Origin: a virus
DNA length: 21,886 bases
IMG/VR virus record: IMGVR_UViG_3300049156_000011
Location: 1-21,886 of that record
Direction: 5' to 3' (one strand)
In this document: positions 1 to 21,886 of the stretch, one piece after another
Layout of the letters: every line of letters starts with the position of its first letter
Numbering within the stretch: position 1 is the stretch's first letter
The notes under the pieces: generated by a model
Seen by the model: the letters and a program-made list of their open reading frames with translations, nothing else
The model's database searches: none
Told to the model about the DNA's origin: nothing
Program-made: the position numbers and the translations under genes

Positions 1-18
1 TTTCAGATTGCAGTATAG
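1..18. repeat. terminal direct repeat, left copy (circular closure)
   Basis: The 18 bases TTTCAGATTGCAGTATAG are identical to the last 18 bases of the window. The reading frame that enters at the right end (start 21427) continues in phase through this copy and stops at 107. The repeat is therefore best read as the overlap of a circular assembly. Whether the virion DNA is circularly permuted or has defined ends cannot be told from this. Confidence 0.9.
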
Positions 19-16537: not shown

Positions 16538-16599
16538 TTTGGCGGATAATTATCCCTCCTCATTTTGGCGGACGGTTCTTTGCTCAGCTATTTGGCGGA
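16538..16599 (+). repeat. three iteron-like direct repeats TTTGGCGGA
   Basis: Identical nonamers lie at 16538-16546, 16564-16572 and 16591-16599, giving spacings of 26 and 27 bases (about 2.5 helical turns). The first two are preceded by further T/A bases and the last two are followed by C. Short similar inverted repeats (CTCCCC...ATCT...GGG) flank the group at 16503-16516 and 16623-16638. Evenly spaced direct repeats in an intergenic region are typical of initiator-binding iterons or of multi-site operators. Confidence 0.65.
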
Positions 16600-16649: not shown

Positions 16650-16913
16650 ATGTCAAAAAAATTAAATGTAAACCCTTATAATGACAAAGGGTTATCATTG
16701 ATTCTTAGAAATATTAAAGGGAGCCAGATGGATAGTATAGAGTATAGTATGGTAGTTAGAGTTATTGATTAAGAAAATTTGTCCAACTGAGATGTTCTTA
16801 AGTGACCTTTCCAGGATTCTCTATATAATATTACTATACCCTCCCTTTAATATTTCTAAGAATATATAGTAAAGGATTTATATATAACCCTTTATGCCTT
16901 ATTTTTTTGGCAT
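16650..16913. repeat. nested imperfect palindrome with 23-bp perfect arms
   Basis: The inner arms are a perfect 23-bp inverted repeat: 16701-16723 (begins ATTCTTAGAAATATT) and 16841-16863. A middle pair, AAAGGGTTAT at 16686-16695 and ATAACCCTTT at 16884-16893, is perfect over 10 bp. An outer pair, 16650-16664 (ATGTCAAAAAAATTA) and 16899-16913 (TTATTTTTTTGGCAT), matches at 13 of 15 positions. The spacers between arms differ in length on the two sides. The centre of about 117 bases has further partial pairing around GTATAGTA. It could form a cruciform in DNA or a long hairpin in RNA. Confidence 0.8.
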
Positions 16914-17193: not shown

Positions 17194-18546
17194 ATGAAGA
17201 TCAGTAAGTACACGAACTTTCCATATCAAGAAGTATATGCTAAGTTAAACATCATGGGCAATTTCATAAAGAAAGTCCGACTAGAATGGTTCATTGATGA
17301 ATTAGTCAGGAAGCAAGATTATTTTTGCATGGTAGATGATGATAAACCAAGATTTATAGAAAGCAATCATTATTATATACCAAGCAGTGAGTTCCAACAT
17401 ATATTAGGAGCACACGAGTTTAAACAGGAAGTAATAAAAGTCTTAACTGAAATGACAGTACTAAGTGTTATAGAGTTACCCACATCATATTTTCAATACA
17501 ATAGCCCACTTGGTTATAAACTAAAGATCAATCCGGGTTATCCGAAGTCCAAGAAGATACATAATAAAAAGATTGAGGGATCATTCAAAAAGTTATGGTC
17601 GGATAGAACTGACCCTATTAAGAAAAGTGGTTTAAGTGGTATCTGTAGAAGACTATGTAAACTAGATTTCAATATAACAGAAGAACAGTTCAGATTAATA
17701 TGTAACAAGAGATACCCAGATTACATTATGGAAAAGATGGAGCTAGGTCTCGACTTCAAATCTAAGATCGATTATGTTGAAAGTCAGATGTCACAGTATA
17801 GACGAATATTAAGATGGAATTCCTCTAATCAGAAAGAAAGAATGGCTTACTACTTTAAAGTTTGTGAGTTCGGACATAGACTACATTCAATCTTTTCTAC
17901 ATCTATGAAAGATCTACGTGCATATGTTACTTTCGAAGAAAATTATATAGATTGTGTAGAAGCTGACATGGATTGCTCACAATTCAACATATTCGCCAAC
18001 TTACTGGCCGCTCAGGGAATAAAGGACGAGTATGTGGATATTATATCAACTGACAACTTTCACTCAGCAGTGGCTCGTAAAATGAGAATAGAGAGATGGC
18101 AGGCTAAATTGATGAATTACAAGCTAATGTTCTGTAAGATCAATAATAAAGCACATAAAGATTTCGTGAGTATGTTTCCAGTAGCAGGAGAAGAATTAAC
18201 TAAACTTAAATCTACTATATATAAAGGACTCCCAGTCAAGTGCCACACCAAAACTATTAAAGATTCAAAAACAGGCCAAGCTAAGTTAGACAAGAATGGC
18301 AATAAGATAAAAGTAAACACGTATCATAAGTCAGCTTCATGTAAACTTCAACAGGAGGAATCAAAAATCATGAAGGAAGTATGGCTGGAACTCCAACGCA
18401 GAAAGATTAAGTTCCTTCCAGTCCATGATGCAGTATATATTGAAAAGGCTAGATCAGAAGAAGGGATAGCAGTTTTCAATTTTATATTAAGTCAGCACCT
18501 AGAGTTTTTTAATGTATCTACAACAAATACTAAGAGGGAGTTCTAA
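17194..18546 (+). CDS. divergent compact family A-type DNA polymerase
   Basis: This 450-aa protein carries the polymerase motifs of family A in the right order. A primer/template segment GHRLHSIFSTSMKDLRAYV (227-245) resembles the TGR...LR.fi region. Motif A, ADMDCSQFNIFANLL, has catalytic-type D260. DNFHSAVA (287-294) stands where DIH..tA is usual. Motif B, RWQAKLMNYKLMF (301-313), has Arg301, Lys305 and an N-Y pair in place of N-F, with F313 for the usual Tyr. A KLQQEES (384-390) segment matches the conserved Gln helix, and motif C is LPVHDAV with H411 and D412. The first 220 residues show no exonuclease DxE pattern and no primase or helicase motif. It opens the early block after the control region and would copy the phage genome. 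Because it is far from textbook polymerases, RNA polymerase or primer-making activity cannot be excluded. Confidence 0.75.
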   Translation: MKISKYTNFPYQEVYAKLNIMGNFIKKVRLEWFIDELVRKQDYFCMVDDDKPRFIESNHYYIPSSEFQHILGAHEFKQEVIKVLTEMTVLSVIELPTSYFQYNSPLGYKLKINPGYPKSKKIHNKKIEGSFKKLWSDRTDPIKKSGLSGICRRLCKLDFNITEEQFRLICNKRYPDYIMEKMELGLDFKSKIDYVESQMSQYRRILRWNSSNQKERMAYYFKVCEFGHRLHSIFSTSMKDLRAYVTFEENYIDCVEADMDCSQFNIFANLLAAQGIKDEYVDIISTDNFHSAVARKMRIERWQAKLMNYKLMFCKINNKAHKDFVSMFPVAGEELTKLKSTIYKGLPVKCHTKTIKDSKTGQAKLDKNGNKIKVNTYHKSASCKLQQEESKIMKEVWLELQRRKIKFLPVHDAVYIEKARSEEGIAVFNFILSQHLEFFNVSTTNTKREF

Positions 18547-18548
18547 TT

Positions 18549-19037
18549 ATGAACTATTCAAAAATCTATTCAGATCTAATATCAAGTCGCAAAGCAATGT
18601 TCAATGAACGAATGAAGTTAAAGAAAAGTGGTGTTTACTTCGAGTATCATCATATTAAGACAGTTAAGAGGGGTGGGAGCAATGACAGGAGCAACTTAGT
18701 ACTATTGACGGGTCGAGAACATTACTTCGCACATCATCTATTATACATGTCTACAATTCAACAAGAAAGTAATTGGAAAGATAATATTAGCACATTCAAT
18801 AAAATGAGGACAAGATCAAAAAGGTCATCTCGAGAATTTGAAAGAATTCGGATTGAAGCAGCTGCAAAGAATAGTGAGTCTAAAACTGGCCAAACACATT
18901 CAGAATATACTAAGAAAAAGATTGCTGAAGGCCAAATTGGTAGAAAACATGAATTAACTGAATGTCCTCATTGTGGAACAGTGTGTTCAGTACCTATGGC
19001 GGCAAGATGGCACTTTGATAACTGTCCGGAGAAATAA
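18549..19037 (+). CDS. HNH homing endonuclease with NUMOD3-like repeat and zinc-finger-like end
   Basis: This 162-aa protein has the phage HNH pattern EYHHIKTVKRGGSNDRSNL (32-50) followed by LLTGREHYFAHHLL (52-65), with His34, His35, Asn49 and His58/His62 as likely metal and catalytic residues. A NUMOD3-like DNA-binding segment TGQTHSEYTKKKIAEGQIG lies at 113-131. The C-terminus has C139-x2-C142, H155 and C159, which could bind zinc. Such enzymes cut a target site and spread by copying themselves into it. It starts two bases after the polymerase stop, with GAGGGAG at 18534-18540 inside the polymerase gene, so it is cotranscribed. It is free-standing: the polymerase gene is not interrupted. 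Confidence 0.88.
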   Translation: MNYSKIYSDLISSRKAMFNERMKLKKSGVYFEYHHIKTVKRGGSNDRSNLVLLTGREHYFAHHLLYMSTIQQESNWKDNISTFNKMRTRSKRSSREFERIRIEAAAKNSESKTGQTHSEYTKKKIAEGQIGRKHELTECPHCGTVCSVPMAARWHFDNCPEK

Positions 19038-19041
19038 CATA

Positions 19042-19317
19042 ATGACTACTATACCCATCATAAGTAACATCACGATCGTCAACAATCAACTTAACTTTCA
19101 AACAGATAAATATCAAGTTGAACCCTGGACAGATCCACAGATGTTTAAGATAGAGATCCCTGTGATAGGCAACTTTTCAAAAGAGTTCAATGATCCAAGC
19201 TGGACTGAAAAGTATCAATCATGGGACAATCCAGTACATGTTATTATAGGCTTAGAGATTAAACAAGATGGACTTTACATGAAGACTCAGATGATAGTTA
19301 AGCCAATTAAAGTATAA
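19042..19317 (+). CDS. small early protein of unknown function (91 aa)
   Basis: The protein looks like a small beta-rich domain: IPIISNITIVNNQLNFQT, then MFKIEIPVIGNF, VHVIIGLEIKQDGLYM and QMIVKPIKV. There are no Cys residues and no membrane segment. The ATG at 19042 was chosen because GGAG lies about 10 bases before it. A longer reading from 18973 would lie within the endonuclease gene in another frame and has no ribosome site. The VNNQL segment near its N-terminus recurs in the protein encoded at 20852, a weak hint of relatedness. Function unknown. Confidence 0.65.
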   Translation: MTTIPIISNITIVNNQLNFQTDKYQVEPWTDPQMFKIEIPVIGNFSKEFNDPSWTEKYQSWDNPVHVIIGLEIKQDGLYMKTQMIVKPIKV

Positions 19318-19387
19318 TTCAATTTTACTCGCTCAGCGTTCCGAACAAATTTAAATACTAAACAAAATACTACCAAGGAGTACTACC

Positions 19388-19624
19388 ATGTACAATCAAA
19401 GATTCACCAGAAAGAAAAGACAATTCAACTCAGCTAGATATGAAAGACCAGCTAAATTTGTTGAGGAACTTGATATGTATGAAACAGACATCGATAGTGC
19501 ATTGAATGATGGAGACACTAGTCCTAAGCAGTGCACAATTCCAGAGCAAGTAATTACATGGTCACCAAGAACAGCCAAGACTATTAAATATGGTATAGAA
19601 GAATGTTCAGCAATAGCAATATAG
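19388..19624 (+). CDS. small early protein of unknown function (78 aa)
   Basis: A good AAGGAG site at 19375-19380 supports the start at 19388. The first 20 residues are very basic (MYNQRFTRKKRQFNSARYER), then comes an acidic stretch (EELDMYETDIDSALNDGD), and the end is neutral with two Cys. The pattern would suit a small protein that binds nucleic acid or a host protein, but there is no recognisable motif. It stops at TAG and is followed closely by another ribosome site. Confidence 0.6.
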   Translation: MYNQRFTRKKRQFNSARYERPAKFVEELDMYETDIDSALNDGDTSPKQCTIPEQVITWSPRTAKTIKYGIEECSAIAI

Positions 19625-19638
19625 ATAAGGAGAAAACA

Positions 19639-19776
19639 ATCGAAATAAGATTCAAAACACCAAGAATGACTAAAGCAAATGCCTGCAGAATAGATGACAT
19701 ATCGTACTATATATTAAACAAACACTTTAATAATGGTATAGAAACAAGAACCCTAAGAGAGATCGGAGTATCATGA
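19639..19776 (+). CDS. short early frame with possible ATC start (45 aa)
   Basis: A textbook AAGGAG at 19627-19632 stands 6 bases before an ATC that opens this frame, and no ATG or GTG lies at that spacing. Reading from ATC gives IEIRFKTPRMTKANACRID and ends with GIETRTLREIGVS. The first standard start is the ATG at 19666, which lacks a ribosome site and would give 36 aa. The last part resembles the second helix of a helix-turn-helix. The stop TGA overlaps the next gene (ATGA at 19773). Real but unusual initiation, or a point change in the start codon, would both explain it. Confidence 0.4.
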   Translation: MEIRFKTPRMTKANACRIDDISYYILNKHFNNGIETRTLREIGVS

Positions 19777-19892
19777 TACAATACATTTTCATGAAAGTTT
19801 CAATAAAAGTACTACCAGCCGTCCAAGTTATTACTTTAGCATGGGCATACACACACCTCAGAGAATTAATGAACACCATACTTGGAGTATAG
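19773..19892 (+). CDS. small membrane protein (39 aa)
   Basis: This 39-aa frame starts at an ATG that overlaps the previous stop (ATGA) and ends five bases before the next gene. It reads MIQYIFMKVSIKVLPAVQV and continues ITLAWAYTHLRELMNTILGV. The middle is hydrophobic enough for one membrane pass. Tight packing between neighbours on both sides supports translation. Its role is unknown; it could act with the membrane protein encoded next. Confidence 0.45.
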   Translation: MIQYIFMKVSIKVLPAVQVITLAWAYTHLRELMNTILGV

Positions 19893-19896
19893 AACA

Positions 19897-20418
19897 ATGA
19901 CAACACAAGAAACAATAGAATTAATATTAAAAGTCATCATGGTGTTATGGTCATGCATTATATTAGCTGCTGTTATGGACATTAAAGATATTACACGGAT
20001 TCAATATTTGAATTATATGTGGCTTAATATGGCGACGGCATTTGCATTCTTCACAACTCCACTCCCACTGGTGGTTCATGTGGTGTTATGGTGCATAGTA
20101 CTCAACATCGGACCTAAACCGAAAGATAAAGAGATCGAGGAAGAACCAGAAAGTGAAGAAGAACTACCGGATGATAGAAAACTTCTAATGGAAAGATTAC
20201 AAAATATTAATGATGCTTGTTTCAAATTACTCGGAAGAAAACCCATTCCCGATCATGATCCAGTCATATTCACAAATAGTGTCGGAACTCTCCATGTATG
20301 TGTAGAAAGATGTATAAAAGAGTTTGATACACTCCCAACACTAGTAATTCAGTTATCGATAGATTTATATGAAAATAGCATAAAAGATCTTAAGAGAAAA
20401 CTAAAAGAAAATCAATAA
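19897..20418 (+). CDS. early membrane protein with cytoplasmic helical domain (173 aa)
   Basis: The ATG at 19897 has GGAG at 19884-19887 and gives 173 aa; a TTG at 19882 would add five residues and is less likely. Hydrophobic segments lie at about 7-27 and 43-72, the second long enough for a re-entrant or second pass. After them comes an acidic linker (KDKEIEEEPESEEELPDD) and a helical, Cys-containing domain with a basic end (IKDLKRKLKENQ). This could anchor a complex at the inner membrane, for instance replication, or act in superinfection exclusion. No family was recognised. A terminator follows. Confidence 0.62.
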   Translation: MTTQETIELILKVIMVLWSCIILAAVMDIKDITRIQYLNYMWLNMATAFAFFTTPLPLVVHVVLWCIVLNIGPKPKDKEIEEEPESEEELPDDRKLLMERLQNINDACFKLLGRKPIPDHDPVIFTNSVGTLHVCVERCIKEFDTLPTLVIQLSIDLYENSIKDLKRKLKENQ

Positions 20419-20430
20419 CACTAAGATAAA

Positions 20431-20475
20431 CCCATCTTCAGATCATTGTATGCCTCGATTTGGAGATGGGCTTTT
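20431..20475 (+). terminator. intrinsic terminator within the early region
   Basis: CCCATCTTCAGATC at 20431-20444 pairs with GATTTGGAGATGGG at 20457-20470 over 14 positions, two of them G-T wobbles. The stem is followed by C and TTTT at 20472-20475. It splits the early block in two; the following genes may depend on read-through or on a promoter I cannot identify. Confidence 0.75.
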
Positions 20476-20493
20476 AACAATAGGAGAAGCAAC

Positions 20494-20823
20494 ATGGACT
20501 CACTACCAGACTTATCTGACAATTCAACTGGGTATAAAGATATGGATAAAAAGAAAAGAACCAGAAAGCCTCATACAGAAGAAACTAAACAAAGAATGTC
20601 TATATTAAAGAAAAAGCTATATGCCTCAACTAAACACCCTTCTGAAAAGAGACAATACATATATGCTACTGACTATATGGAAAGTGAAATCTTAACAAGT
20701 ACAGAGATCAAAGCTAAATATGGTATAACCCCATCATCATATCTACCTAAGGGCATCAGAGCCTTTACATGGAGACAGGGCAAGCGAAAGAATCATAAGC
20801 TATTCCGAGTAAAAGCAATATAA
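20494..20823 (+). CDS. DNA-binding protein with NUMOD-like modules, no nuclease domain
   Basis: This 109-aa basic protein starts at the ATG at 20494 after AGGAGA (20482-20487); a longer frame from 20446 would run through the terminator and is rejected. Residues 27-36 (HTEETKQRMS) with flanking Lys/Arg match the NUMOD3 pattern of homing endonucleases. Residues about 67-92 (LTSTEIKAKYGITPSSYLPK) look like a helix-turn-helix of the kind that follows it in such enzymes. No HNH or GIY-YIG catalytic motif is present. It may be a domesticated or decayed homing endonuclease remnant acting as a DNA-binding regulator. Confidence 0.65.
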   Translation: MDSLPDLSDNSTGYKDMDKKKRTRKPHTEETKQRMSILKKKLYASTKHPSEKRQYIYATDYMESEILTSTEIKAKYGITPSSYLPKGIRAFTWRQGKRKNHKLFRVKAI

Positions 20824-20851
20824 TAACAAACAAGAATAAGGAAAAAGTAAA

Positions 20852-21421
20852 ATGAGTTTAACAATTGACAATTTAAGTGGGTCCCTTCTTTCAGTAAACA
20901 ATCAACTACATGAAGTTCAAGATGTAAGAATTCAATTTCAAACTGAGTATAGATATAAGTATCACATAACAAAATTAACAGTAGCCACTATAAAGTGTAT
21001 AATGGCCAGCAGAACAGGGCAATACACCAGTCATATCGTAGAACCCCAATGTGTCGGATTACAATATGGATTAGGGGGCTATGAAAACTTCCAGCTAGTT
21101 CTCAGTGATAGTTTAATAATAACAGCTCCACTCACATCACTAAAAGCACAATCAGTCCCTTCATATATGATAGCTGACAAACTAGAACTATTCATTGGAG
21201 TTGAACAGGCTGGACTAGCATCAATAAAAGATGTTCTAGATGATGAAAACTGTAGAGGCTTCGATCAGCTACATAAATATTACCCAGATGATTTCAAATT
21301 ATGGTGGCCTAAAATGGAGTATAGATCCCTGAGCCGTGTAACAGTGCAACTACTAGAAGAACATTATTCTGAACATTATGAATTATGGCTTCCATATAAA
21401 ACATGGCACGAGAAGGACTAA
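20852..21421 (+). CDS. early protein of unknown function (189 aa)
   Basis: The start follows AAGGAAAAAG at 20837-20846. The first half is beta-rich (SLTIDNLSGSLLSVNNQL, VRIQFQTEYRYKYHITKL, FQLVLSDSLIITAPL), and the second half is helical and rich in Trp, Tyr and acidic residues (YPDDFKLWWPKMEYRS, LLEEHYSEHYELWLPY). There is no membrane segment and no catalytic motif I recognise. A VNNQL segment near the N-terminus is shared with the small protein at 19042. It lies in the second early unit after the internal terminator. Confidence 0.62.
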   Translation: MSLTIDNLSGSLLSVNNQLHEVQDVRIQFQTEYRYKYHITKLTVATIKCIMASRTGQYTSHIVEPQCVGLQYGLGGYENFQLVLSDSLIITAPLTSLKAQSVPSYMIADKLELFIGVEQAGLASIKDVLDDENCRGFDQLHKYYPDDFKLWWPKMEYRSLSRVTVQLLEEHYSEHYELWLPYKTWHEKD

Positions 21422-21426
21422 TAAAA

Positions 21427-21886
21427 ATGGAATCAGCAAAAAAATACTTTGATAACTACTGGAAAACTTGTAAACACACACCACAAGAATGGCAAAGACA
21501 GTACTTAAATACATTCCAAGAGGGCTGTGATAGCTTTCAAACTGCACTAAAGCATATGAAAAAAGCAGCTCTTAATGCCCGCCGTACAGGTAAGTCATTC
21601 AGTAAAAAGTTTCAAACTTACATTCAACATATTGATATGAACTTCAATGAACTACTACACTCCAACATAAAACTCAACTTAACTCAAGATAGATACTATA
21701 AGGTAGTAGACATATACTTTAATAAATCCCCATCTAAACATAAAGGAAGAGAGGGCTTAGATATCTTAATGGAGCCAGTTGAACTTGATAATGCAGACAT
21801 ATTGATGGACAAGATAGCACCAGAGATAAATCATATAGTAAATCTAACAGGTACATACAAGATAGAACTTTCAGATTGCAGTATAG
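21427..21886 (+). CDS. early protein spanning the circle junction (182 aa in total)
   Basis: The frame starts at an ATG five bases after the previous stop and is still open at the window end. Joined through the 18-base overlap to the start of the window, it stops at 107 and gives 182 aa. The first 80 residues are helical and basic (MESAKKYFDNYWKTC, LKHMKKAALNARRTGKSFSK). The rest is mixed, with YYKVVDIYFNKSPS, KHKGREGLDILMEPVELD and a short beta-like C-terminus. No family was recognised. The unbroken frame is the best internal proof that the molecule is circular as assembled. Confidence 0.68.
   Translation, partial: MESAKKYFDNYWKTCKHTPQEWQRQYLNTFQEGCDSFQTALKHMKKAALNARRTGKSFSKKFQTYIQHIDMNFNELLHSNIKLNLTQDRYYKVVDIYFNKSPSKHKGREGLDILMEPVELDNADILMDKIAPEINHIVNLTGTYKIELSDCSI
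21869..21886. repeat. terminal direct repeat, right copy
   Basis: These are the same 18 bases as 1-18 (TTTCAGATTGCAGTATAG). The base before the repeat here (C at 21868) has no counterpart in the window, so the overlap is exactly 18. Removing one copy gives a circular length of 21,868 bp. Confidence 0.9.

Follow-up and report, generated by a model that had tools for sequence, protein, structure and literature searches.

How a phage of about 21.9 kb copies its DNA, when a compact and divergent polymerase is the only replication protein that can be recognised in it, is the question raised by this locus. The window, that is, the whole 21,886-nt IMG/VR record analysed here, carries an ORF whose 450-aa product, named P0001, contains every motif quoted in a preliminary description as the mark of a family A DNA polymerase (Table 1). 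We propose, with a probability of roughly one half, that P0001 is an active DNA polymerase of family A fold without an exonuclease, and that it serves as the phage's own replicative or initiation polymerase.

The record is listed as 'linear' in IMG/VR, and the preliminary description treated it as a whole genome; the latter reading is upheld. The 18 bp shared exactly by its two ends are the one 18-mer that occurs twice in the record, which makes it likely that the genome is a complete circle of about 21,868 bp; ORF 21403-21885 stays open in frame when the ends are joined. The reading as a linear fragment is largely rejected on the grounds of the exact overlap and the joined ORF. A sister contig of 21,890 bp (L004), whose terminase is 66% identical, has both of its ends in the terminase gene: it starts at about residue 71 and stops at about residue 69, two bases away from an in-frame closure. 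The end structure of both contigs indicates that window and sister are probably complete circles of about 21.87-21.89 kb. Both carry Mu/B3-like head genes, and terminase searches for further sisters returned this one and two distant Verrucomicrobiota matches (25-26%). PHROG_6493 identifies a DnaD-like helicase loader in the sister (E 4e-47), which gave no polymerase match. Between its small and large terminase genes the sister also has a sigma-70 region 2 protein (L004 11210-11704, Sigma70_r2 E 5e-12); beside the terminase genes of the window lies a glycosyltransferase-like ORF (82-1020, weak match to Pfam Glyco_transf_4). In agreement with the preliminary description, searches with Pfam and PHROGs found no helicase, primase or SSB among the replication-side ORFs of the window; a regular DNA polymerase was not found in the probably circular record either. 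The claim that P0001 is the sole replication protein holds in the form that it is the sole recognised one, which host factors must help; the unqualified 'sole' is not upheld.

Single-protein searches yielded no confident relative of P0001. No Pfam family was assigned, the cut-off of PF00476, one of the profiles that the preliminary description had proposed for comparison, not being reached; PHROG_15971 'DNA polymerase I' was matched instead (residues 239-400, E 4e-4). By sequence there was no match in the PDB, and tblastn against phages gave a single, weak one. An exonuclease domain is absent from P0001, as had been noted. The predicted structure, an AlphaFold2 model based on 42 aligned sequences, confirms the family A palm and fingers fold that had been expected from the motifs: most ten-residue blocks from residue 251 on have a pLDDT of 77-96, with weaker blocks at 341-350, at 371-380 and at the C-terminus. 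All 50 Foldseek matches listed from the PDB are family A DNA polymerases (E 6e-6, probability 1.00). VIA-align matched the Plasmodium apicoplast polymerase (Z 12.8, 210 residues at 3.5 Å), and the 50 VIA-align matches listed are DNA polymerases except for the yeast mitochondrial RNAP 6ymv_A, at rank 50 (Z 11.4). The N-terminal 220 residues of P0001 are poorly modelled. In large-phage relatives, the N-terminal region is well modelled (pLDDT 84) and contains a winged helix, whose best PDB matches include replication initiators, at Z scores that do not exceed 7.4 and that many other winged helices equal. Because these scores are tied, and because the N-terminus of P0001 gave no match to that winged helix in a profile comparison, origin binding is not claimed. 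As a separate observation, three different phages have an HNH or homing endonuclease gene directly or closely 3' of their polymerase gene (window 18549-19037; L013 3808-4695; L072 5864-6361), and a second ORF of the window (20446-20823) is weakly similar to homing endonuclease C-termini (PHROG_314, E 0.011).

Since single-protein searches gave no confident relative, motif patterns were used. A back-translated pattern (LQxxES, 20 residues, HD[AS][IV]) scanned against IMG/VR found four relatives (L007, L008, L009 and L010); the two matches of an earlier pattern with a wrong gap, antisense to reverse-transcriptase-like ORFs, were rejected as chance. The nearest relative of P0001, L007, also matches the exonuclease/DNA polymerase model NF011538 (E 1.8e-7). 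Both L008 (E 7e-31) and L007 (E 4e-13) match PHROG_4756 'unknown function', to which P0001 itself has no match up to E 1. With P0001 and L007 as a joint query, viral contigs gave L007 alone and genomes gave nothing. Members of PHROG_4756 in phage records include ICP1 ORF100 and proteins of many Vibrio phages, annotated as hypothetical. This PHROG corresponds to divPolA2, a published polymerase group (Virol J 2024; PMC11348598), as indicated by the match of its representative AUR84708 (E 2e-91). A second scan added 55 further relatives, mostly in large-phage contigs, which constitute an unannotated Gln-type branch; unannotated phage records of 595-735 kb belong to the same branch. A profile of this branch also detects P0001, at E 3.6e-6 in a search of a 16-sequence set. 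In a tree of 28 core sequences P0001 lies beside the PolA outgroup; support for this placement is moderate, and the branches are long. P0001 is a deep branch of divPolA-type phage polymerases, not an orphan. Some members have features of their own. In the published AUR84708 (L019 25469-26761), motif C has Phe in the place of the His, and its Asp is followed by Glu; the divPolA2-type ICP1 ORF100 (L011 7032-8699) and several Vibrio relatives are overlapped at their start by a short ORF lying upstream; and a divPolA2-type protein of 765 aa (L072 3245-5539) has a long Ser/Asn/Tyr-rich repeat tail.

The earlier suggestion of a poorly described subgroup on small replicons is retained for its first half; small replicons proved too narrow, most of the relatives found lying in large-phage contigs. 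At least one other circular phage of about 21 kb, unrelated to the window, does carry a member. In this phage (G003, ~21.4 kb) no replication gene other than the family member is recognised, and its circularity is seen in the last 151 bp, which are identical to bases 36-186 at its start and lie in 48-bp tandem repeats. These repeats at its ends (L010 8207-8357, L076 1-186) are a possible iteron array. Another small relative (G004, 20.7 kb, possibly a partial genome) encodes both a member and an exonuclease subunit of a polymerase (PHROG_192, E 7e-40).

An alignment of 69 members, P0001 and 68 others gathered by motif scans and from database matches, was used for the active site. The motifs follow the same order in all 68, which, together with the predicted palm and fingers in the C-terminal half, shows that those of P0001 did not arise by chance. 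Within motif B, Lys at position 305 and Arg or Lys at position 301 are each found in 68 of the 69 sequences, and F313 in 61. The motif A metal ligand has to be reassigned: D260, which had been proposed as catalytic, is Lys, Ser, Gln, Asn, Pro or Gly in most relatives, and the catalytic residue is the invariant D258. The Phe of motif B and the Ala after the HD of motif C, presented earlier as oddities, fall within the family norm, the latter position being Ser in 63 members, Ala in five and Glu in one. Five residues after the motif A Asp, 60 of the 69 members have Gln (Q263 in P0001) and seven have His, at a position occupied by Gly in T7 RNAP (DGSCSGIQ) and by Glu in T7 DNA polymerase. We take this to be the usual steric-gate position, and F313 to occupy the position of T7 RNAP Tyr639, on the strength of work on Klenow and T7 RNAP; P0001 has Phe there and not Tyr. 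Gln at the steric gate and Phe at the Tyr639 position would favour DNA over RNA synthesis, and from these known residues we favour the view that P0001 makes DNA. The Glu residues of family A are absent both from the steric gate and from motif C, where P0001 has A413; Ser or Ala after HD is a family feature that instead resembles RNAP.

Table 1. Features of the window (positions in the 21,886-nt record).
Feature	Position	Strand	Basis
Terminal overlap TTTCAGATTGCAGTATAG, left copy	1..18	+	exact 18-bp end match
Three exact TTTGGCGGA direct repeats, iteron-like (starts 16538, 16564, 16591)	16538..16599	+	26-27 bp apart
Long inverted repeat, candidate origin element	16692..16872	.	32-nt arms 88% complementary, 117-nt loop
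Divergent family-A-type polymerase without exonuclease domain, 450 aa	17194..18546	+	motifs, PHROG_15971, fold, alignment
Possible winged-helix segment, residues 59-110 (uncertain)	17368..17523	+	AF2 secondary structure, pLDDT about 50-56
R229, Arg before motif A	17878..17880	+	69/69, invariant
D258, metal-binding Asp of motif A	17965..17967	+	69/69
Motif B: R301, K305, Y309, F313	18094..18132	+	alignment of 69
Q386 and E389, conserved Gln helix	18349..18360	+	Q 66/69; E or D 68/69
H411-D412, motif C	18424..18429	+	H 68/69; D 69/69
HNH homing endonuclease, directly 3' of the polymerase gene	18549..19037	+	PHROG_655 E 2.5e-27, Pfam HNH
Terminal overlap TTTCAGATTGCAGTATAG, right copy	21869..21886	+	exact 18-bp end match

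The gap before the polymerase gene contains both the iteron-like repeats and the inverted repeat. The repeat TTTGGCGGA has no further exact copy in the window, none of 200 shuffles folds as well as the inverted-repeat strand (z -4.4), and Rfam gave no match. As a pattern-based candidate, these elements may constitute the phage origin. The preliminary description had suggested that the polymerase may prime its own synthesis or depend on a special origin; what the window shows in this respect is an origin-like region. It can be hypothesised that P0001 would be recruited to an origin in this 16.5-16.9 kb gap, that it would make DNA there with the helicase, primase, SSB and clamp of the host, and that it would do by another route the work of the DnaD-like helicase loader in the sister.

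DNA polymerase activity with a role in phage replication is the likeliest function of P0001, the replicative or initiation role being the part that we infer. This reading draws on the palm and fingers model, on PolA enzymes as leading PDB matches and on the invariance of R229, D258 and D412; on the family links, the circular genome and a sister with a loader but without a polymerase; and on the two small relatives, one in which no replication gene besides the member is recognised and the other with an exonuclease subunit. Several observations stand against this reading: no recognisable initiator is encoded, the origin is a pattern, the model is poor over its N-terminal half and motif C is without the Glu typical of DNA PolA. 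The window phage could rely entirely on the host replisome. In the published phages, moreover, a regular polymerase is present alongside divPolA2, for which the authors propose repair as a possible function and keep RNA synthesis open as well (PMC11348598). This weighs against the replicative reading and towards P0001 as an accessory enzyme, a DNA polymerase that would repair DNA, fill gaps or act in recombination while the host replisome, recruited by an unrecognised phage protein, copies the genome. Several ORFs at 18973-21885 without known function would be compatible with this, and we consider it a tentative second option. Against it, 1.35 kb would be an unusual outlay for an accessory repair enzyme in a genome of 21.9 kb, the unrelated circular phage of ~21.4 kb has kept a relative and shows no other recognised replication gene, and the sister has a helicase loader instead.

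It is doubtful that P0001 is a single-subunit RNA polymerase, for transcription or primer making. The HDS/HDA form of motif C resembles the HDS of T7 RNAP, the yeast mitochondrial enzyme is among the structural matches, and RNA synthesis is kept possible by the divPolA2 authors (PMC11348598); however, Gln replaces the motif A Gly of T7 RNAP, Phe stands at the Tyr639 position, every other PDB match listed by either method is a DNA polymerase, and the small G004 genome pairs its member with a DNA polymerase proofreading subunit. One-protein replication, in which P0001 would use an N-terminal winged helix to bind the phage origin and would start DNA synthesis there without a phage helicase, primase or initiator, appears unlikely. 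Least probable is a catalytically dead family A relic with a structural or regulatory role: P0001 is highly divergent and the published AUR84708 has lost the motif C His, but all catalytic residues are present in P0001 and D258 and D412 are invariant in the family. For the preferred reading, P0001 as the phage's own DNA polymerase, proofreading is not encoded in the window; the genome of one relative has a separate DnaQ-type exonuclease.

The family is partly known already, as divPolA2 (PMC11348598), and a biochemical characterisation was found for none of its members. Relative to the literature found, the new element is a deep divPolA-type branch in small circular phages, where it supplies the one replication gene that is recognised. 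Published divPolA-type polymerases come from larger phages and have been seen only alongside a regular polymerase. In small circular genomes that have a member and no other recognised replication gene, the function of these enzymes can be tested directly in a minimal setting, with the close sister and its helicase loader as a natural comparison. In addition, ICP1 ORF100 and many unannotated large-phage proteins can now be named, and the catalytic residue is corrected.

With family A enzymes (Klenow, Bst, Taq, T7 gp5; PF00476), P0001 shares the palm and fingers fold, the motif order and the residues D258, R301/K305 and H411-D412; it differs in having no exonuclease and no Pfam match, Gln for the steric-gate Glu, Phe for the motif B Tyr and no Glu after HD. 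Single-subunit RNAPs (T7, mitochondrial) have in common with it the palm fold and an HDS-like motif C, whereas their Gly at +5 of motif A and their motif B Tyr (R...K.......Y in T7 RNAP) are Q263 and F313 in P0001. TVpol of transpovirons and virophages is likewise a divergent polymerase on a small replicon, and the Zamilon replication protein is among the BFVD structural matches of P0001; TVpol sits with primase-helicase domains, whereas no helicase was found in the genome of P0001. The divPolA2 proteins (PHROG_4756), found in barbaviruses (PMC11348598), Vibrio phages and ICP1 as ORF100, have like P0001 a family A palm without exonuclease, an N-terminal domain of their own, a length of about 400-560 aa and the order R...D...R...K...Q...HD. 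Their motif A mostly ends in His-Pro, where P0001 has Ser-Gln, and they mostly have Asn at the F313 position; the published members occur in phages of about 80 kb or more with a regular polymerase, which was not found in the record of P0001. The Gln-type large-phage branch has a well-predicted N-terminal winged helix, uncertain in P0001, and at only about 20% identity it shares with P0001 the Ser-Gln of motif A, the Phe at the end of motif B, the Gln-Glu helix and the absence of an exonuclease.
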